DNA of 64,000 nucleotides, taken from Oceanimonas sp. GK1 (GTDB taxonomy: Bacteria > Pseudomonadota > Gammaproteobacteria > Enterobacterales > Aeromonadaceae). The stretch spans positions 1,877,001 through 1,941,000 of the forward strand of contig NC_016745.1 in the NCBI RefSeq assembly GCF_000243075.1. Reading direction: 5' to 3'. The translations under genes were made by a program, and so were the position numbers. The notes under the pieces were generated by a model. It worked only from the letters and a program-made list of their open reading frames with translations, was not told the DNA's origin and ran no database searches. Below are positions 1-61,974 of the stretch, piece after piece (within the stretch, counting starts at the first letter, position 1; each line of letters begins with the position of its first letter).

Positions 1-2082
1 ATAACGGCGGTTCACCATTTGGGTGGCGGCCGGAATGGTGACGTTGCTGCCATCCTGGTAGGCCCGGGTCACGGTTTGGGTGGCGGGCACCACCTCGGCG
101 GGCAAGGGGGCCAGGTTGCGCTCAACGTTCTGGGTTACCTGGGGAACGTCGGCCGGCAGCGGGGCCATGCTGCCGGCGAACTCCCGGGGCGTTGCCATCA
201 TCTCCGGTGTGGCGGTCGCTTCCCGGGGCAGTTCGCCGGCGGTACGCTCGATTTGCTGAGTCACCGGGGGGAGTTCCGGGGTTTCCGGCAGGGCCATGTC
301 CACCCCGCCTAGGTCAATATCAATGCCGGGGATCTTGTTCAGCCCTTCCAGCAACCACTGCACCAGCTGGCCAGCCACGCGCAACGGGAAAGTGATTGCC
401 CGAAAAATGGTGCCAAATACATCCCCGATGGTCCGGCCCGCTTCGGCCACGCTGTCCAGTTGCTCAGTCGTGCTTTTTACCGGTGAGATCAGCTCCATAA
501 ACCAGCCGAACAGGTCTGCCACCAGGCCGCCAATCAAGCCCAGCAAGCCGGCAAATACGCGGAACAGGTTCACAAAGGGGGCGAACAGCTCGCCGAGCCC
601 GGCCGCCTCAATAAATCCTGCTATAAACCCGCTGACAAAGGCCTTGATGGGCTCCCAGTATTTATATACCGCCAGCGCTACGGCACCGATCAGCGCGATA
701 ACGGCAACGATGCCGGCACCGGCCAGCAGCACGCCCGCCAGATTGACTTTTATCATCATGAGCAAACCAAGCAGCGGCGTTCGCAGTGCCAACATTGCCG
801 TTTTGATCAAGCCCAACGGGCTGAGCAGTAGCTTCAACCCGCCAGCAAAAAACACGGCTATACCGGTGCCAATGGCACTGATCAGCGTCCAGCTGGCGGC
901 TACGGCGGTGAGGCTGGCCAGGCCAATGACCGCCCAAGTCACCACCTCGGTGAGGTGCGGGAACATATCGGTCCAGGTCACCAGCACCGCCATGGCATCC
1001 ACGATGGAGCCGACAATGCCGTTGATGGTGGGCAGCACGCTGGCCCCGGCGCCGGCGCGCAGGGCAAACCACACCTGCTCCAGCCGCTCCCACTGGTCGG
1101 TCATGGCGCCGGCCATTTGGGTGGCCTTGTCCATGCCGGTTTGCTGGCCCACGTTGTCAATGCTGGCGGCCAGGCCGTCCACGTCGGGGATCATCTGCTT
1201 GATCAGCGCCACGGCCTCGTCGGAGCCGAAGGCCTTTTTCAGGGCGTCCGACTCGGCCACGGTGAAGGTGTCACCGAACTTGTCTTTCAGCTTTTGCAGG
1301 ATCTGCACCATGCCCAGCATGTTGCCGTTGCCATCCACAAAGCTCATGTTGAGCTTGTCCTGGGCGCCGGCGATGCCGGCCAGAAACGCCTTGTACTTGG
1401 TACCGGCCTCGGATCCCGACATGGTAGCCTGCAGGGTGCCGAGCACCGCCATTTGCTCGTGCATGGCAATGCCGGCGGCGGTACCGGCGGCACCGATGCT
1501 GCCAAAGGCGGCGCTCATTTCGGCGCCGGTGGTTTTGAACGATTCCACTGCCTGGGCGGTCTGGCCGGCCACCATGGCGGCGAAGTTGTCCCGGCCCATG
1601 GCGTCGGCCTGTTTCTTGAACACGCCGTACATGGTGCCCATGTAGGCGGTCACGGTGGCGGTGTCTGCCTTGGTGGCGGCGGCCAGCACGGCGGACGACT
1701 TGGTGATGCCGGCCAGCTCGTCGCCGGTGAGATCGCCCATGGCGGATTTGATGTCGTAGGCGGCGCCCACGAACTCGGTGGCCGACTTGCCGAATTCAAT
1801 GGAGAACTCGGTGGCGGTCTGGCTGAGCTTATCGAGATCCTGCTGTACCACGCCCAGGGACTTTACTTCACCCAAGGCGCGGTCCATTTCAATGGCGGGC
1901 ATCAGCGCCTGATACAACGCCACGCCGGACGCAGCCAGGCCGGCGGCACCGCCGATCAGGTTGTCCATGCTTTGGCGGCCCAGCTCTCCGGTGTCCCTGA
2001 TCTGCTGGTTGATGCCCTGAATCGGCCGGGTGACTTTGTCGACCAGGCTGACCGTGAGCATCAGTTGTTCCAGGTGCTTCAT
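1..2082 (-). CDS. Phage tail tape measure protein (C-terminus outside window)
   Basis: This minus-strand frame is open from the ATG at 2082 to the window edge (694 codons, no stop), so the product is truncated only by the window. It sets tail length and is threaded through the tail tube. The N-terminal third resembles TP901-type tape measure proteins (PhageMin_Tail). A long hydrophobic region at roughly residues 380-480 is typical of tape measures that insert into the host membrane. The last ~100 visible residues hold imperfect repeats around a VTQxVxR-like core. The ATG overlaps the stop of the frameshifted chaperone extension (ATGA), implying coupled translation. Length and position after the tail chaperone fit the family. 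Confidence 0.93.
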   Translation of the reverse strand, partial: MKHLEQLMLTVSLVDKVTRPIQGINQQIRDTGELGRQSMDNLIGGAAGLAASGVALYQALMPAIEMDRALGEVKSLGVVQQDLDKLSQTATEFSIEFGKSATEFVGAAYDIKSAMGDLTGDELAGITKSSAVLAAATKADTATVTAYMGTMYGVFKKQADAMGRDNFAAMVAGQTAQAVESFKTTGAEMSAAFGSIGAAGTAAGIAMHEQMAVLGTLQATMSGSEAGTKYKAFLAGIAGAQDKLNMSFVDGNGNMLGMVQILQKLKDKFGDTFTVAESDALKKAFGSDEAVALIKQMIPDVDGLAASIDNVGQQTGMDKATQMAGAMTDQWERLEQVWFALRAGAGASVLPTINGIVGSIVDAMAVLVTWTDMFPHLTEVVTWAVIGLASLTAVAASWTLISAIGTGIAVFFAGGLKLLLSPLGLIKTAMLALRTPLLGLLMMIKVNLAGVLLAGAGIVAVIALIGAVALAVYKYWEPIKAFVSGFIAGFIEAAGLGELFAPFVNLFRVFAGLLGLIGGLVADLFGWFMELISPVKSTTEQLDSVAEAGRTIGDVFGTIFRAITFPLRVAGQLVQWLLEGLNKIPGIDIDLGGVDMALPETPELPPVTQQIERTAGELPREATATPEMMATPREFAGSMAPLPADVPQVTQNVERNLAPLPAEVVPATQTVTRAYQDGSNVTIPAATQMVNRRY

Positions 2083-2270
2083 GTGCCGTTAAATGCCTTT
2101 GCTATGCCCGCCGCGATGGCTTTGCTGGTGTTTTCCTGGTGTTGCTTGTCGAGCCAGATGGCCCGGGCCAGGGCTTCTTCGTCGTCGGGTTCATGGGGCA
2201 GGTAGTGGCGGCGCAGTGCCAGTACCTGCTCCAGTTGGTTGCCCTCTATCGCGGCAACCCGACGGCTCAG
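2079..2270 (-). CDS. -1 frameshift extension of the tail assembly chaperone (DUF6890-like)
   Basis: This 63-codon frame starts within the end of the chaperone gene and ends in a TGA that overlaps the tape-measure ATG. It has no ATG, GTG or TTG codon, so it is best explained as the C-terminal part of a fusion made by -1 frameshifting at 2270-2276. The residues include LRRHYLPHEPDDEEALARA and IWLDKQH, which I recall as typical of the small DUF6890 proteins next to the tape measure in K139-like phages. In other long-tailed phages (lambda G/GT, P2 E/E') the extended form binds the tape measure and recruits tail tube subunits. The fusion would be about 150 residues. Confidence 0.85.
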   Translation of the reverse strand: MSRRVAAIEGNQLEQVLALRRHYLPHEPDDEEALARAIWLDKQHQENTSKAIAAGIAKAFNGT

Positions 2271-2276
2271 TTTTTT
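2237..2276 (-). promoter_or_regulatory. Programmed -1 ribosomal frameshift signal (slippery heptamer plus hairpin)
   Basis: Read on the minus strand, 2276-2270 is the heptamer A AAA AAC in the zero frame of the chaperone, directly followed by its TGA stop. Ten bases further a 7-bp stem (GGTTGCC at 2259-2253 with GGCAACC at 2243-2237) closes a 9-base loop. A slippery heptamer, a spacer and a downstream hairpin make up the known layout of phage tail chaperone frameshift sites. Frameshift efficiency cannot be judged from sequence. Confidence 0.85.
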
Positions 2277-2530
2277 ATGCTGATCTCAAGCTCGGGCACG
2301 AACGCCTCGTTCACCTTGGCGGCGAGCTTGAGGCCGGCGCCGGTGAGGGCCAGCACCTTGGCCAGAGCGTCTTTGCTGTCGGCGGCCACGATGCGGTTCA
2401 GGTAGTTGTGGGCCGGGGCGACCTTGTCGTCCATGCTCAGCTCGTTGATGTACTTGTTGTACGCCTGGGTGGTGGGTTCAAACACCAGATCGGTGCCGTT
2501 TACGGTCAGGGTGATGGTTTGTTTGCTCAT
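2267..2530 (-). CDS. Phage tail assembly chaperone (short form)
   Basis: An 87-residue protein of the putative phage tail assembly chaperone family (PF10963-like), starting MSKQTITLTVNGTDLVFEPT. It should coat the tape measure during tail assembly. It sits directly upstream of the tape measure, where such chaperones are encoded in almost all long-tailed phages. Its ATG overlaps the stop of the preceding gene (ATGA). The last codons before the stop are part of a slippery heptamer, so a fraction of ribosomes should produce a longer fusion (see 2079-2270). Confidence 0.9.
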   Translation of the reverse strand: MSKQTITLTVNGTDLVFEPTTQAYNKYINELSMDDKVAPAHNYLNRIVAADSKDALAKVLALTGAGLKLAAKVNEAFVPELEISIKN

Positions 2531-3906: not shown

Positions 3907-4362
3907 TTAACCGATCAGGTGCCGGGTGTCGTCGGCGGAGAGGTAGGGCACGCCGTTGATGCGCACGAACTCGGGATCGGTCACGAAGCCCTTAATCTTG
4001 TGCACGTTCTTGGCTCCGCCCTTGCCGTCGATGTCGAGCAGGTCGGAGATCTGCAGCTTGATGCCGAAGGCTTCAACGCGGAACTCTTCGCCGCCGGTGT
4101 TGGCGTAGAACAGGGCGTCGTGCACGTCGATGCCCCGCCAGCTGCCGGCCCGGCGGGCGGCGTCGCTCAGCAGGTTGAAGTTCTTGGTGTCCAGCTCGTA
4201 TTCCACGTCGGCGGTAACGTCGCCGTCCACATAGCCGTCGGTGATCCCCCGGGTCTGGGTTACGGCGGTGCTGTCGTTGATGGTGAGGGTGGCTTTTTCA
4301 ACGTGGAGCATGACGCCCAGGATCTCTACGTCGAAGTTCATGCCGGAAATGCGGCGGCTCAT
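3907..4362 (-). CDS. Phage tail tube protein (DUF2597-like)
   Basis: A 151-residue protein directly after the sheath gene, with an ATGA overlap. The sequence (MSRRISGMNFDVEILGVMLHVEKATLTI and so on, ending in INGVPYLSADDTRHLIG) is that of the DUF2597 family found after DUF2586 sheath proteins in K139/phiO18P-like phages. It takes the position of P2 FII, the inner tube of the contractile tail. The assignment to tube function is by gene order plus the beta-rich composition. Confidence 0.85.
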   Translation of the reverse strand: MSRRISGMNFDVEILGVMLHVEKATLTINDSTAVTQTRGITDGYVDGDVTADVEYELDTKNFNLLSDAARRAGSWRGIDVHDALFYANTGGEEFRVEAFGIKLQISDLLDIDGKGGAKNVHKIKGFVTDPEFVRINGVPYLSADDTRHLIG

Positions 4363-5483
4363 TGGCGTTCTCCGGGGTTGCTCAGGTCAAGGATGATGTT
4401 GATGCCGATTTTCTTGGGGCAGTCGTAGGGCCGGGCCAGGGCATAGATGGCCACTTCGTATTTGCTCAGCCATTCAATGGCGATGTCGCCGTCGTCGGGG
4501 GGCGTGATCTCGCCGGGGAAGGTGATGCCGGCAATGGTCACCGACTTGCTCATCACCCGCAGGTCGCGCATGAAGTAGAGCTTGGCGGCGGCAATGCTGC
4601 CCGGGGTGCTGTTGAGCTGGCGATCACCAATGCGGGCAATGCCGCGAATGCGCAGCTTGCGGGCCACCTTGTCGGCAACCCGGCGGTTTTCCACCACCTG
4701 ATAGTCGCCGCCTTCCACGTCCAGCAGGTTGCCGTCGGCCCAGTAGACGCCGTCGAAGTCGGGGAACCACCAAGGCACGGACAGCCGGGCCGCTTCCAGG
4801 GTTTGCAGGGTGGCCAGGCTCAGCTCGGCACCGGTGCTGTCTTTCGGGGCCGGGCCCAGCCCCACCAAGGCGCCGGTTTTCACCCGCATGGGGGTGTCGG
4901 CCACGGTCACGGCGCGGTTGCACAGGCGGCCGGCCAGCACGCCGGCGTTGTTGCCGTGCAGCTGGGGCACCAGCATGACGCCGTCGGCGGCAATGCCGTT
5001 GGCGAGTGCGGTCATGTCGGTTTCATAGGCGGGCCAGTCCTGGGCGTCTACGCCGTCGGCTTTAATGCCTTCGGCGGCCAGCATCATGAACTGCCAGCGG
5101 CCCCAGGTGGCAATCAGCTGGTTGCGCAGGGCCTGGGCGGCGTTGATCTGCTCGGCGGTGGTCACTGGCTCCAGCAGCACCACCGCCTCAAAGGAGGCGA
5201 CCTGTTGCGCGGCCAGCACCGCCTCGGTCCAGTCTTCTGCCAGGGCCAGCACGTGGGCGTGGGCGCTCCAGTTCTGGCCGGCGTTCTGCATGGCGGCGAG
5301 CAGGTTGGTTTTTAACGGGCTGTCTTCGGTGCCCAGCAGATCGTCGAGGTTCGACTGGGTGTTAATGGAGAGCAGCTTGCCGCTGTTTTTGGTGGCCTGA
5401 CCCACAAACAGGAAGTGGCGTTCCACCTCGTTGGTGGGCCCCTGCATCTGGTTCAGGTTGTTGACCTGGATAGTTGGGATCAT
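4359..5483 (-). CDS. Contractile tail sheath protein (DUF2586-like)
   Basis: A 374-residue protein beginning MIPTIQVNNLNQMQGPTNEV. It belongs to the DUF2586 group that replaces the classical P2 FI sheath in K139-like phages. C-terminal sequences such as RIGDRQLNSTPGSIAAAKLYFMRD and FPGEITPPDDGDIA are typical of sheath domains that attach to the tube. Its start overlaps the stop of gene S (ATGA) and its stop overlaps the tube start. It forms the outer contractile cylinder of the tail. Confidence 0.88.
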   Translation of the reverse strand: MIPTIQVNNLNQMQGPTNEVERHFLFVGQATKNSGKLLSINTQSNLDDLLGTEDSPLKTNLLAAMQNAGQNWSAHAHVLALAEDWTEAVLAAQQVASFEAVVLLEPVTTAEQINAAQALRNQLIATWGRWQFMMLAAEGIKADGVDAQDWPAYETDMTALANGIAADGVMLVPQLHGNNAGVLAGRLCNRAVTVADTPMRVKTGALVGLGPAPKDSTGAELSLATLQTLEAARLSVPWWFPDFDGVYWADGNLLDVEGGDYQVVENRRVADKVARKLRIRGIARIGDRQLNSTPGSIAAAKLYFMRDLRVMSKSVTIAGITFPGEITPPDDGDIAIEWLSKYEVAIYALARPYDCPKKIGINIILDLSNPGERQ

Positions 5484-10061: not shown

Positions 10062-11885
10062 ATGGCCTACACCGAAGAAATCCGCAACGCTGCCAAGGGG
10101 CTGTATTTAAAGCGCTGGCTGCCCCGGGAAATTGCCCAGGAGCTGGGCCTGAACTCGGCGCGGGTGGTCTATCAGTGGGTGGAGAAATACGCCTGGGATT
10201 CGCTGCTGTCGGAAATTCAGCTGGAAGACGCCATTGCCTTGCGGGTGCAGCTGCTGCTGAACCGGGAGAAAAAGAGCCAGGCCGAGCTGGACGAACTCGA
10301 TCGGCTGATCAGCCAGCATGTGCGGCTGAAGAAAGAGCTGCTGCAGCTGCGCGAAAAGGAAGTGGGGCTGAAGGAGCGGGAAGCGGCCATTGAGGCCGGG
10401 GTACCCGCCGACGAACTGCCGGAGCCACGGCGCGGCCGCAAGGGCGGCGGCCAGGCCAGGGGCGGCAAGGGCAAGAAGGGAAAGGCGCCCAAGAACAACG
10501 TGGGCGAGTTGTTGCCGGAAGACTTTCAGCCGTTCCTGGATACGCTGTTCGGCTATCAGCTGCGCTGCCGCGAGGCCATGCACGACCCGGAGGTGCCGCG
10601 CACCCGCAACATATTAAAGTCGCGCCAGATTGGCATGACCTACTATTTCGCCGGCGAAGCGCTGGAAGACGCGGCCCTGACCGGCGGCAACCAGATATTC
10701 CTGTCGGCCACCCGGGCCCAGGCAGAGGTGTTCCGCTCCTACATCATCAAGATCGCCCAGGAGTTCCTGGGCGTGGAGCTGTCGGGCAACCCGATAATCT
10801 TAAGCAACGGTGCCGAGCTGCACTTTCTCTCCACCAACTCCAACAGCGCCCAGTCGCGCAGCGGCAACGTCTACATCGACGAATATTTCTGGATCCCGGG
10901 GTTTACCAAGCTCTCCAACGTGGCCTCGGCCATGGCCACCCAAAGCCGGTGGCGTAAAACCTATTTCTCCACGCCCTCGGCCAAGTCGCACCCGGGCTAC
11001 GGCTTCTGGACCGGCGACACCTGGAAAGACGGCAAGGACAGTCGCAAGGACGTGGAATTCCCCTCCTTCGACGATTACCGCGACGGCGGCCGGGTGTGCC
11101 CGGACCGGCAGTGGCGCTATGCCATTACCGTGGAAGACGCGGTGGCCAGCGGCTGCAACCTGATCAACGTGATTGAGCTGCGGGACGAATACGCCGACGA
11201 GGTGTTTCGCAATCTGTTCATGTGCGAGTTCGTGGACGACGAAGCCAGCGTGTTCAAGTTTGGCCAGCTGGAAGGCTGCGGGGTGGACACCGAACTGTGG
11301 GAAGACTTCGACCCACGCGCGGCCCGGCCGTTCGGCACCCGGGAAGTGTGGCTGGGCTATGACCCCAGCCGCACCCGCGACAACGCCACCCTGGTGGTGC
11401 TGGCCCCGCCGCTGGTCGCCGGCGAGCCGTTTCGGGTGCTGGAAAAGCACCACTGGCGGGGGCTGAACTTTCAGCACCATGTGGCGGAGATCGCCAAGCT
11501 GTTCAAGCGCTACCGGGTAACCTACATCGGCGTGGACATTACCGGCATTGGCGCCGGGGTGTTCGACCTGCTCAAAACCAAGTACCCCCGCGAAGCCCAC
11601 GCCATTCACTACTCGGTGGAAAGCAAAAACCGCCTGGTGCTGAAGATGATCGACGTGGTGGAGGCGGGGCGCATCAGCTGGGACCGGGAGCACAAAGACA
11701 TTCCGCTGGCCTTTATGGCCATCAAGCGCACCACCACCGGCAGCGGCAACGCCATGACCTTCAAGGCCGGGCGGGACGCCACCACCGGCCACGCCGACGC
11801 CTTTTTTGCCATTTCCCACGCGGTGATCAACGAGCCGCTGGATCACTCCAATCAACGCACTTCAACCTGGGCCATTCAAGCATGA
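10062..11885 (+). CDS. Terminase ATPase subunit (P2 gpP, large subunit)
   Basis: A 607-residue protein. An N-terminal helix-turn-helix-like section ([20 protein letters not shown], gpP DNA-binding) is followed by a basic linker, an ATPase part around [19 protein letters not shown] (residues ~185-203), and a nuclease-like C-terminal part with acidic motifs [20 protein letters not shown] and [17 protein letters not shown]. It pumps DNA into procapsids at the portal. Transcribed divergently from gene O, as in P2. Its end overlaps the portal gene start by four bases (ATGA). Confidence 0.93.
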
Positions 11886-12871
11886 GCGCACCCAACCCAT
11901 CCAAAGACCTGGTCGCCTTCAGCTTCGGCGAGCCGGAGGCCATAGAGCCCAACCGCTGGCTGACCGATTACGCCGAGCTGTTTTACGACCATTACGCCGA
12001 CTACTGGAGCACGCCCATCAGCCGCCAGGGCCTGGCCCAGATCGCCAACACCAACGCCCACCACGGGGCGCTGATTTACGCCCGCCGCAACATGGTGGCC
12101 GGCCGCTTCAAGGGCGGCGCCGGCCTCAAGCGCCGGCAGATGCAGGCCTTTGTGCACGACCTTATTCAGTTCGGCGACGCCGCCTTTTTGAAGGTGCGCA
12201 ACGGCCTGGGCCGGGTGGTGCGGTTGCACCCGCTGCCGTCCATGTATCTGCGCCGGCACCAGAGCGGCGACTTTCGGCTGCTGCGGGCCAACAACGAGCA
12301 ACTGCACTACCGGCAGGAGGACGTGATCTACCTGTCTCAGTACGACCCGCGGCAGCAGATTTACGGCCTGCCGGATTACCTGGGCGGCATTCAGTCGGCG
12401 CTGCTGAACCGGGACGCCACCCTGTTCAGGCGCAGGTACTACCAGAACGGGGCCCACATGGGCTTTATCTTCTACGCCACGGACCCCAACCTGAGCGAGA
12501 GTCAGGAGGAAGAGCTGAAGGCCAAAATCCAGAGCTCCAAGGGGGTGGGGAATTTCCGCAGCCTGTTTATCAACATACCCAACGGCAACCCGGACGGGGT
12601 GAAGCTGATCCCGGTGGGGGACATTGCCACCAAGGACGACTTTGACCGCATCAAGAACATCAGCGCCCAGGACGTGCTCACGGCGCACCGTTTCCCGCCG
12701 GGGCAGGCGGGCATCATTCCCAGCAACGCCGCCGGCCTGGGAGACCCGGAAAAGACCGACATTGTGTATACCCGCAACGAGGTGTTGCCGCTGTGCGAGC
12801 TGATCGCCGACGAGGTGAACTCGGACCCGGACATTCCGGCCCGGCTGGCCCTGGATTTTGCGCTGGAATGA
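11882..12871 (+). CDS. Phage portal protein (P2 gpQ, PBSX type)
   Basis: A 329-residue portal protein of the P2/PBSX type. Recognisable stretches are [20 protein letters not shown] near residue 41, [38 protein letters not shown] and [12 protein letters not shown]. Portals form the dodecameric vertex channel for DNA entry and tail attachment. The gene overlaps the terminase gene (ATGA), mirroring the P-Q order of P2. Confidence 0.93.
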
Positions 12872-14308: not shown

Positions 14309-14998
14309 TTATTTGTGTAATTTTACTTCAAGTACGTTTGTTATTGCATTGCCATTCCAACAGTATTCAAAGTGCTTGGCCTGGCAGATTTCCGTGATCA
14401 GCCTGGGTCTGAACAGCACGAAGCAATCATGGCCGGCATGCCTGACCGAACGATACATCAATCCATCTTTACCATTACTACGTTGCTCGCTGGCGAAGGC
14501 CTGGCTGTGGCTGTAGTCGGTGGGATGATAGAGGTTGGATGAAAGGTGCTGTTGGTCGGTAATGTCTACCAGATCCGCAGTGAAGCGGGCGAACAGTGAG
14601 CGCATTTGAATGCGCTGTGCGGGCTCTTTGGTGTAACTGTAAAGCCGTTCCTGGTGGTAGATGGTTTCTTTTATTGCCGTGTCCAGGGAAGGGGCGCAGT
14701 AATAACCACCAAAGTCTCCGGTAGTGAAACGCGCTCCCTCCGGATTGATATGGGTGAACGCGGCCATGGCGTAACTGGCGTGGGGGACTCCCACCAGCCA
14801 ATCTTCCTTGGGCACCAGGTTCAGATCACCAGCCTGCTCCAGCAGTCGCGGGTTGGTCATGGCCTCCACGGCGTACACGGCTTCCAGTTCGTCGACCGAG
14901 GCCACGTCTTCGTACAGGTCGATGGGCGGATACTTGCTCGGGATCAGCCGGTAGCACTCTTGCCCCTGCAATTTGGTAATCTCAAGCTCTTCGCTCAC
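14309..14998 (-). CDS. RES-domain toxin of a Xre-RES toxin-antitoxin pair
   Basis: A 229-residue RES-domain protein. RES toxins degrade NAD+ (phosphorolysis or hydrolysis) and arrest growth. Typical stretches are ECYRLIPSKYPPIDLYEDV at the N-terminus (Arg), FGGYYCAPSLDTAIKETIYH (the Tyr and Glu of the active site region) and the later Ser near SSNLYHPTDYSHSQAFASEQ. The ATG overlaps the antitoxin stop (ATGA), the usual arrangement for antitoxin-first type II pairs. Length is normal for the family. Confidence 0.87.
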   Translation of the reverse strand: MSEELEITKLQGQECYRLIPSKYPPIDLYEDVASVDELEAVYAVEAMTNPRLLEQAGDLNLVPKEDWLVGVPHASYAMAAFTHINPEGARFTTGDFGGYYCAPSLDTAIKETIYHQERLYSYTKEPAQRIQMRSLFARFTADLVDITDQQHLSSNLYHPTDYSHSQAFASEQRSNGKDGLMYRSVRHAGHDCFVLFRPRLITEICQAKHFEYCWNGNAITNVLEVKLHK

Positions 14999-15399
14999 GC
15001 CGTTCCTCCGCGCCAGGCACTCAGCCGTTTGGATACCTCGTACAGATCCGCCACCTTGCCACCCATCATCACGTCCATGGCGCTTCTGCCTGCGAAGAAG
15101 GGATGCTGGTTGGGTTTGCGCACCCAGCCATACACGCTGTCTTCGGCAGTGAACAGAATGCGCAGGCTCTTGTGGATGTTAAGGATGTAGCTCATCCGCT
15201 CCAGGGTGTCCGGGCTTAGACGAAGTCCGCCATGTGCCGCCTTGTACTTGTTCAATGTTGAACGTGAGTTAATGCCCAGCAGGGCCAACTGCTCTTTGGT
15301 GTCACAGTCCCATTTATCCAGGATCCGGAACACGACCGGGAGCGCCTTGCTGTGGTCAACGCCATGATTTCCTTGGGCCGGTAACGCTTGAGACATCAT
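14995..15399 (-). CDS. Xre/MbcA/ParS-type antitoxin of the RES pair
   Basis: A 134-residue protein with an N-terminal helix-turn-helix part (VFRILDKWDCDTKEQLALLG, then STLNKYKAAHGGLRLSPDTL) and a C-terminal toxin-binding domain of the MbcA/ParS/Xre type (PNQHPFFAGRSAMDVMMGGK, ending in the Ser-Ala-Trp-Arg-Gly-Gly motif). It should neutralise the RES toxin and repress the operon. The start at 15399 has a perfect AGGAGG site seven bases upstream; the longer in-frame extension lacks one. A 14-bp palindrome lies upstream. Confidence 0.85.
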   Translation of the reverse strand: MMSQALPAQGNHGVDHSKALPVVFRILDKWDCDTKEQLALLGINSRSTLNKYKAAHGGLRLSPDTLERMSYILNIHKSLRILFTAEDSVYGWVRKPNQHPFFAGRSAMDVMMGGKVADLYEVSKRLSAWRGGTA

Positions 15400-15465
15400 A
15401 CCACCCTCCTGTATGCGTAGCGCCCTGGGAGGATCCCGGGGCGCTGTGGTGTTGGTCAATTTAGG

Positions 15466-59950: not shown

Positions 59951-60271
59951 ATGATCCCCGGAGAACTGCAACTGGCCGCCGGCGACATTGAGCTGAATGC
60001 TGGCCGTGAGCGGCGCACCATCACCGTGGCCAACACCGGCGACCGGCCCATTCAGGTGGGCTCCCATTATCACTTTGCCGAGGTCAACCCGGCACTGCTG
60101 CTGGATCGCGAACAGGCCCATGGCTTTCGCCTCGACATTGCCGCCGGCACCGCGGTGCGCTTTGAGCCGGGCCAGCACCGCACCGTGACCTTGGTGGCCA
60201 TGGGTGGTCGCGGCCATGTATATGGATTTCGCGGCAAGGTCATGGGCCCGCTGCAAGGAGAACAGCCATGA
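59951..60271 (+). CDS. ureB: Urease beta subunit
   Basis: A 106-residue UreB ([40 protein letters not shown]). An AAGGAGACC ribosome site precedes the ATG. The stop overlaps the ureC start (ATGA). Confidence 0.96.
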
Positions 60272-61974
60272 GCAAGATCAGCCGTGCGGCCTATGCCGAC
60301 ATGTTTGGCCCCACCACCGGCGATCGGGTGCGCCTGGCCGATACCGAGCTGTGGATTGAGGTGGAAAAAGATCTCACCCTCTACGGCGAAGAGGTCAAGT
60401 TCGGTGGCGGCAAGGTGATCCGCGACGGCATGGGGCAGAGTCAGGCGGTGCGCGCCGACAGCGTGGATACCGTCATCACCAATGCGCTGATCGTGGATCA
60501 CTGGGGCATCGTCAAGGCCGACGTGGCGCTGAAGGCCGGCCGCATTCACGCCATTGGCAAGGCCGGCAACCCCGACATTCAGGACGGTGTCACCATCAAT
60601 GTGGGGCCGGGCACTGAGGTGATTGCCGGCGAAGGGCATATTCTCACCGCCGGCGGCGTGGACACCCACATTCACTACATCTGTCCCCAGCAGGCGGAAG
60701 AGGCCCTGTGCGCGGGCATGACCACCATGATTGGCGGCGGCACGGGTCCTGCCACCGGCTCCAAGGCCACCACCTGCACCCCGGGTGCCTGGCACATTGC
60801 CCGCATGCTGCAGGCCACCGACGGCCTGCCCATGAACTTTGGTTTTCTCGGCAAGGGCTGTGCCAGCCGGCCCGAGGCCCTGCGCGAGCAGCTGGAGGCG
60901 GGGGCCATGGGGCTCAAAATCCACGAGGACTGGGGCGCCACCCCGGCGGCCATCGACTGCTGCCTGTCGGTGGCGGACGAGTACGACGTGCAGATTGCCA
61001 TTCATTCCGACACTCTCAACGAGTCGGGCTTTGTGGAAGACACCTTGGGTGCCTTCAAGGGCCGTACCATTCACACCTTTCATACCGAAGGGGCCGGCGG
61101 CGGTCATGCCCCCGATATTCTGACCGCCTGCAGCCTGCCCAACGTGCTGCCGTCGTCCACCAACCCGACCCGGCCCTACACCATCAATACCGTGGACGAA
61201 CACCTCGACATGCTGATGGTGTGCCACCATCTGGATCCGGCCATTCCCGAAGACGTGGCCTTTGCCGACTCGCGCATTCGCAAGGAAACCATCGCCGCCG
61301 AAGACATTTTGCAGGATCTGGGGGTGATTTCGATGATGTCCTCCGACAGCCAGGCCATGGGCCGGGTGGGTGAGGTGGTCTGCCGCACCTGGCAGACCGC
61401 CCACAAAATGAAGGTGCAGCGCGGCCCGTTGCCACAAGAGCCCATTGCCGGCGCCGACAACTACCGGGTGAAACGCTATATCGCCAAATACACCATCAAC
61501 CCGGCCATCGCCCACGGGGTGGGGCACGAGGTGGGCTCGGTGGAAACCGGCAAGCTGGCGGATCTGGTGCTGTGGAGCCCGGCCTTTTTCGGCATCAAGC
61601 CTGCCTTAATCATCAAGGGCGGCACCATTGCCTGGGCCCCGATGGGGGACGTGAACGGCTCCATTCCCACGCCCCAGCCGGTGCACTACCGCCCCATGTT
61701 CGGCGCCTTTGGCCATGCGGCCGCCGCCAGCAGCCTGACTTTTGTCAGCAAGGCAGCGCTGGCCCGTGATCTGCCCGGCAAGCTGGGCCTCAAACGCCGG
61801 CTGGTGGCCTGCGAGCATACCCGCGACATTACCAAGGCGGACATGATCCACAACGGCGCCACGCCCCACATCGAGGTGGACGCCCAGACCTACGAGGTGC
61901 TGTGCGACGGCGAGCTGCTGACCTGCGAGCCCGCCACCGTACTGCCCCTGGCCCAGCTGTATTCCCTGTTTTAA
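60268..61974 (+). CDS. ureC: Urease alpha subunit, catalytic
   Basis: A 568-residue UreC, which hydrolyses urea to ammonia and carbamate at a dinickel site. Metal-binding landmarks are [14 protein letters not shown], the carbamylated Lys in [10 protein letters not shown], and the flap region [20 protein letters not shown] with its His. Length is as usual (about 567). It overlaps ureB by four bases. A 125-base gap with a REP-like palindrome separates it from ureE. Confidence 0.97.

Follow-up and report, generated by a model that had tools for sequence, protein, structure and literature searches.

How is the 63-codon frame translated that lies between the tail assembly chaperone gene and the tape-measure gene in a prophage of Oceanimonas sp. 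GK1? The prophage was analyzed in the window, which is the whole 64,000-nucleotide stretch of DNA under study, and the coordinates of its features are collected in Table 1. On the minus strand, the 3′ end of the chaperone ORF (2530-2267) reads ATA AAA AAC TGA. The heptamer and the UGA that follows it had been reported at the chaperone end in an earlier note on this DNA, and their coordinates and phase were confirmed in the sequence. Because the −1 frame opens only after the TGA at 2288-2286, six −1 codons (2285-2268) are open ahead of the end of the zero-frame stop, and the only in-phase X XXY YYZ motif in this stretch is the A_AAA_AAC heptamer. The −1 frame comprises 63 codons from CTG at 2270 to TGA at 2081-2079; this stop shares bases with the ATG of the tape-measure gene (2082-2080). 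ATG, GTG, and TTG are all absent from this frame in the prophage; it contains six CTG codons, the first of which overlaps the stop, two ATC codons, and two ATA codons. The earlier description of a start-less frame overlapping the tape-measure ATG was correct in lengths and positions.

Judged from the sequence, the locus is very probably best explained by −1 programmed frameshifting of the kind found in lambda G/GT and P2 E/E+E′. Most ribosomes would terminate at the UGA and release the 87-residue chaperone. A minority would slip from A AAA AAC to AAA AAA and continue for 63 codons, yielding a fusion with a predicted length of 150 residues and a tail formed by the helical DUF6890 domain. We infer the occurrence of the shift, its rate, and the roles of both products.

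Table 1. Features of the chaperone locus and its surroundings in the window
Feature	Position	Strand	Evidence or remark
Tape-measure gene, PF10145	1..2082	-	Pfam E 6.5e-29; runs off window; ATG overlaps −1-frame stop
−1 frame, C-terminal extension of fusion	2079..2270	-	63 codons + TGA
DUF6890 domain within −1 frame	2085..2216	-	PF21830 E 3.1e-23; phrog_7050 E 5.7e-25 (PHROG)
Second, longer hairpin	2194..2233	-	Starts 37 nt past heptamer; conserved in clade
7-bp hairpin, 9-nt loop	2237..2259	-	10 nt past heptamer; intact in this prophage, not conserved
Zero-frame ORF, tail assembly chaperone, short product	2267..2530	-	87 aa; Pfam PF10963 Phage_TAC_10, phrog_1214
Zero-frame UGA stop, abutting heptamer	2267..2269	-	Sequence
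Slippery heptamer A_AAA_AAC, zero-frame phase	2270..2276	-	Sequence
Last upstream −1-frame stop, TGA	2286..2288	-	Sequence; bounds possible shift region
Tail protein, PF10772 Phage_HP1_Orf24	3907..4362	-	E 1.1e-71; phrog_1182 tail protein
Tail sheath protein, PF10758 DUF2586	4359..5483	-	Pfam; phrog_907 tail sheath
Phage integrase, PF00589	27232-28233	+	Probably near prophage right end

Relatives of the locus were collected from phage records, IMG/VR, GTDB genomes, and whole-genome searches. When 50,697 phage records were searched with the fusion by tblastn, 73 matched, and in 42 of these the match spanned at least 80% of the query. Aeromonas phage phiO18P was the best-scoring named phage in this search (61.7% identity) and thus outscores K139 (47.4%), the phage named in the earlier note. 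Two of the searches contributed the best 80 of 516 and the best 80 of 465 loci. The final set contained 289 distinct records including the window, with the same place sometimes fetched twice, and 222 unique sequences; 80 of the 289 were retrieved by querying with the chaperone alone. Because the loci returned were the closest matches, the set is biased toward near relatives, and the counts derived from it are not independent, since the sequences are related. DUF6890 and the upstream chaperone were detected with profiles built in this analysis. The DUF6890 frame was located downstream of the chaperone on the same strand in 289 of 289 sequences.

The −1 relation between DUF6890 and chaperone was found in 219 of the 222 unique sequences, and 217 carry an in-phase A AAA AAN motif where the two frames meet. 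It ends in C in 197, in A in 17, and in G in 3 of these 217, and the zero-frame stop lies directly against the heptamer in 212 of them (UGA in 109, UAA in 83, and UAG in 20). Clustering at 65% identity gave 29 clusters, 25 of which have the heptamer. By this recurrence, both the heptamer and the −1 relation exceed chance. The earlier note had named loss of the heptamer in homologues that keep both frames as a point against a shift; the heptamer was retained together with both frames in the 217 sequences, and two of the others have A_AAG. Together with the recurrent −1 relation, these results support its main reading of a −1 shift leading to a chaperone fusion. Two Pseudomonas phages (L018 and L019) and one further genome (L050) have A AAA AAG instead of A AAA AAC plus stop, and their zero-frame stops are located 21, 21, and 36 nt further downstream, respectively.

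Codon usage at the site was compared with the rest of the gene. With no selection of sequences for the heptamer, the codon before the site always has A as its last base (222 of 222 unique sequences), whether it encodes V, I, L, or A, and AAA is the site lysine codon in 220 of 222. Among the 44 loci with a G+C content of at least 58%, the site lysine is AAA in 44 of 44, compared with 52 of 232 lysines elsewhere in the gene, and the site valine is GTA in 38 of 38, compared with 9 of 194 elsewhere (both background counts from 42 of these loci). In the 107 loci with a G+C content below 45%, the site asparagine is AAC in 98 of 98, compared with 226 of 662 elsewhere in the gene (106 of these loci). 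The bases of the shift site are thus kept against composition, which supports −1 frameshifting.

Five of the 222 sequences lie outside the heptamer count (L104, L146, L147, L217, and L233). In the isolate L104 and the metagenome-assembled genome L146, one A of the run is changed to G, so that A_AAG replaces the heptamer and no run of more than three A remains at the site. The downstream RNA structure of these two sequences was not significant (p 0.054 to 0.216). In the accessible text of PMC4066793, A_AAG is the top-ranked shift tetramer in E. coli, and the fact that two heptamer-less relatives keep this shiftiest tetramer argues for ribosomal slippage. L217 has a shortened A run at the site, and in L147 and L233 the run is retained and the frame relation is interrupted nearby. 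All three appear to have single-base indels at the shift site or close to it, which may stem from sequencing error or from decay.

The conserved A run could also be read as a site of transcriptional slippage, at which RNA polymerase would add one A within the A6 or A7 run and thereby bring the fusion into one frame. At least six A are located exactly at the junction in 217 of the 222 unique sequences, and slippage of a plant potyvirus polymerase at GAAAAAA is described in the part of PMC5009743 that was accessible. For bacterial polymerase, however, the same part of that source gives high-efficiency slippage at runs of 9, and a homopolymer of about 9 or more is not kept here, the run being A6 or A7 in the 217 sequences. 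The longest A run at the site in L104 and L146 is at most 3. In addition, the excess of RNA structure described below lies downstream of the run, whereas a nascent hairpin aiding slippage would, judging from PMC5009743 as far as accessible, sit upstream. Because of the A_AAG relatives without a long A run, the run length below 9, and the downstream structure, the ribosome is favored over the polymerase, and we consider transcriptional slippage very unlikely.

Translation of DUF6890 as a separate product would require re-initiation at a CUG overlapping the stop (cUGA) or an internal start. The first −1 codon, CTG, overlaps the UGA in this prophage. Of the 212 loci in which a stop abuts the heptamer, 109 share this arrangement, but 103 have CUA or AUA in place of CUG at the overlap. 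ATG, GTG, or TTG occurs upstream of −1-frame codon 17 in 81 of 217 loci, 10 of them with ATG, when the open stretch 5′ of the heptamer is counted; none of the three is present there in 136 loci, and 20 of the 217 have none anywhere in the −1 frame. The possible starts in the 81 loci speak for a separate product, and the absence of all three codons from the 20 speaks against it. The frame of this prophage, described earlier as start-less, is among those with none.

Database annotation was inspected in 20 of the 73 phage records, including HP1, HP2, K139, PV94, and phiO18P. The frames were joined in none of them. The second ORF was annotated as a separate gene in 7 and was absent from 13, one of which also lacked the chaperone, as had been anticipated for phages of this type (two separate genes or the second one missing). 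These internal starts set by annotators, which agree with separate translation, are located at extension residues 16-19 in six records and at residue 5 in one. The nearly invariant residues L1 and R4 of the extension, however, lie upstream of the annotated start in all 7 records with such a gene, and the same is true of I8, N11, and Q15 in 6 of the 7. We therefore regard a separate start as highly improbable. The Pfam DUF6890 model begins at residue 19 of 63, downstream of L1, R4, I8, N11, and Q15. The presence of conserved residues ahead of the model points to truncated gene calls as the basis of the family models. In addition, 36 of 5,426 E. coli genomes contain a near match to a relative. 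The one E. coli RefSeq record that was opened contains a 27-residue DUF6890 piece (84 bases with stop), which brings the count of joined frames to 0 of 21 opened records (20 phage and one E. coli).

A decayed or mis-sequenced gene, in which the frame break would be a mutation or error and the short product alone would matter, is hardly credible, since apparent single-base indels affect L217, L233, and L147 but the identical −1 break recurs at the same position across 219 of 222 unique sequences, which come from many genera and several collections, and −1-frame substitutions are biased to codon position 3 against nine of nine relatives compared.

The RNA downstream of the heptamer was investigated by folding tests on 88 representatives with less than 90% identity, chosen from the 217 sequences, using synonymous shuffles that kept the −1-frame protein. 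This prophage had been merged with a close relative among the representatives and was hence tested separately. In the region 5-65 nt past the heptamer, the mean z was −1.50 (Wilcoxon p about 1e-11, n = 88), compared with −0.27 (p 0.07, n = 88) at 65-125 nt. In a sliding profile the excess of structure peaked at +4 to +54 and was near zero past about +90, with smaller dips at −65 to −20 (z −0.38) and at +74 to +119 (z −0.44). Many single sequences showed no excess, z being below −1 in 39% and 43% of the sequences in the two best windows. An upstream Shine-Dalgarno-like stimulator was unsupported among the 88 representatives (mean z 0.04). A consensus fold of all clades was weak, with a mean pair probability of at most 0.18 (83 sequences), and the structure is therefore described as clade-specific folds. 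RNA structure is thus in excess 4-54 nt past the heptamer across the family, in clade-specific forms.

In the Oceanimonas prophage, a stretch of 78 nt that begins with the final base of the stop has a folding energy of −36 kcal/mol (z −3.06 against dinucleotide shuffles). The hairpin proposed earlier was confirmed in its position, its 7 bp (arms GGUUGCC/GGCAACC at 2259-2253/2243-2237), its 9-nt loop, and its 10-nt distance. With synonymous shuffles, z was −2.23 (p 0.012) in a 30-nt window and −0.94 (p 0.168) in a 50-nt window. The comparison across relatives suggested in the earlier note, however, did not bear out its conservation. On an alignment of 56 Aeromonadaceae-type sequences, only 45.9% of the cells of this helix are paired. 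The aligned locus of O. smirnovii and O. baumannii lacks two of the seven pairs; prediction gives a different fold for both, and their 30-nt windows fold no better than the shuffled sequences (z 0.05 and 0.45). The pairing level and the break in the two congeners rule out the 7-bp hairpin as a conserved stimulator, and it is not a defining part of the signal.

Much of the −36 kcal/mol fold is due to a second hairpin (2233-2194) that the earlier note had not named. Here 96.8% of cells are paired in the 56 sequences, and 3 pairs are changed on both sides. Both helices together have 6 pairs and 17 cells changed on both sides, compared with at most 4 and 10 in a control in which the partners were slid by 1-3 columns. 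RNAalifold drew only 10 pairs on the 56-sequence alignment, and the second hairpin also encodes a conserved protein stretch. Its start, 37 nt past the heptamer, is distant for an element that stimulates ribosomal shifting, so it is doubtful whether this hairpin acts on the shift directly.

Among known systems, lambda gpG/gpGT follows the same logic of a short chaperone plus a fusion and differs in shift site, sequence, and phage morphology. In lambda the short chaperone is accompanied by a rarer fusion, the extension of which contacts the tail tube protein (PMC5009743, accessible part). For P2, the accessible text of PMC3091744 gives products of 91 and 142 aa for gene E and E+E′, made from one start with a −1 shift at T TTT TTG. 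As far as that text goes, P2 resembles the present locus in belonging to a related phage group, in the chaperone adjoining the tape-measure gene, and in the −1 shift. The P2 heptamer T TTT TTG is absent here, where A AAA AAC is found instead; PF10963 is the only Pfam family above cut-off for the chaperone; and lysis-type genes separate the probable tail tube and the chaperone, unlike in P2. The same portion of PMC3091744 reports no predicted downstream hairpin for P2 and three Burkholderia relatives, in contrast to the excess of structure observed here. The A AAA AAC heptamer is shared with IS1, where the product is a transposase and not a phage chaperone. The proven A_AAA_AAC insertion-sequence cluster of PMC4066793, which on our own reading of the accessible text is IS1, is listed there with no established stimulator. 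In pea enation mosaic virus, a eukaryotic RNA virus, the stop is located 3 nt past the shift site; the likeness is a stop close to the slip site, which here abuts the heptamer and has a putative role.

According to the accessible part of PMC4066793, A AAA AAC shifts with low efficiency in E. coli, yet insertion sequences very likely use it. The low efficiency counts against a shift at this locus, but it would fit a need for little fusion. On the model of lambda gpG/gpGT, the short form would serve to coat the tape-measure protein, and the extension would bring in the tail tube subunit. The start of the tape-measure gene was assigned by a crude pattern in 96 of 217 loci, the remaining 121 being left out, and it overlaps the DUF6890 stop in 87 of these 96, in 71 as ATGA. 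Because the −1-frame stop often overlaps this start, coupling between the shift and tape-measure translation is possible. A more specific proposal, which we put forward tentatively and consider rather unlikely, is that the abutting stop works in the signal. Weak heptamer, stop, and clade-specific fold would then form a termination-coupled −1 shift, and shifted ribosomes would reach the tape-measure start, so that the amounts of fusion and tape-measure protein would be set together.

The gene order around the chaperone was also considered. The chaperone (2530-2267) lies between the tail protein and sheath genes (3907-5483) and the tape-measure gene (from 2082), with lysis-type genes intervening. 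The tail protein at 3907..4362 is probably the tail tube, judged from its position. The predicted chaperone fold was counted in favor of −1 frameshifting. The chaperone model yielded no Foldseek match at E ≤0.001 in PDB or BFVD, and several proteins named as tail assembly chaperones are among the BFVD matches with E 0.03 to 0.5. HK97 gp13 (2OB9), grouped with 3FGX in the accessible part of one paper, was absent among the best 50 Foldseek matches and the 8 VIA rows. All 63 residues of the extension were modeled as three helices with a pLDDT of 96.4. No solved structure matched the DUF6890 model (best E 6.4), no sequence relative of the fusion was found in PDB (best E 0.58), and NCBIfam gave nothing meaningful.

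Frameshifted tail chaperones are known from lambda and P2; what is added here is the family-wide evidence, a likely role for DUF6890, the heptamer-abutting stop, and the correction of the hairpin. A frameshift in HP1/K139-type chaperones was not found in the titles and abstract openings of the literature searched; Xu 2004, with 28 phages, may already cover the group. No frameshift was found in the accessible parts of the PV94, Smhb1, phiA051, and ACA papers, and DUF6890, PF21830, PF10963, and Phage_TAC_10 were named in none of the literature searched. DUF6890, a family of unknown function, gains a likely role as the part of the HP1/K139-type tail chaperone that only frameshifting adds. Such a role suggests why databases hold DUF6890 truncated or not at all, and annotators of this phage group gain a simple rule. 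With its stop against the heptamer, its low-efficiency motif, and the tape-measure overlap, the locus offers a compact case in which the setting of tail protein ratios can be tested.

Further observations were made elsewhere in the window. A match to the Rfam 5′ ureB sRNA (RF02514, 108 bits) at 60418-60702 on the minus strand is antisense to an ORF at 60268-61974 on the plus strand, named by eye as urease alpha-subunit-like; the match may reflect only conserved urease coding sequence and not an RNA gene. Terminase and portal genes (10062-12871, plus strand) diverge from the tail and lysis genes, an arrangement which we take to be the HP1/K139-like layout. Within the prophage, at 14309-15459 on the minus strand, an Xre/MbcA-like antitoxin (PF20432, PF09722) is immediately followed by a RES-domain protein (PF08808, E 1.5e-32). 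The two constitute a toxin-antitoxin pair of the RES-Xre type and lie ∼1.4 kb from the portal gene.
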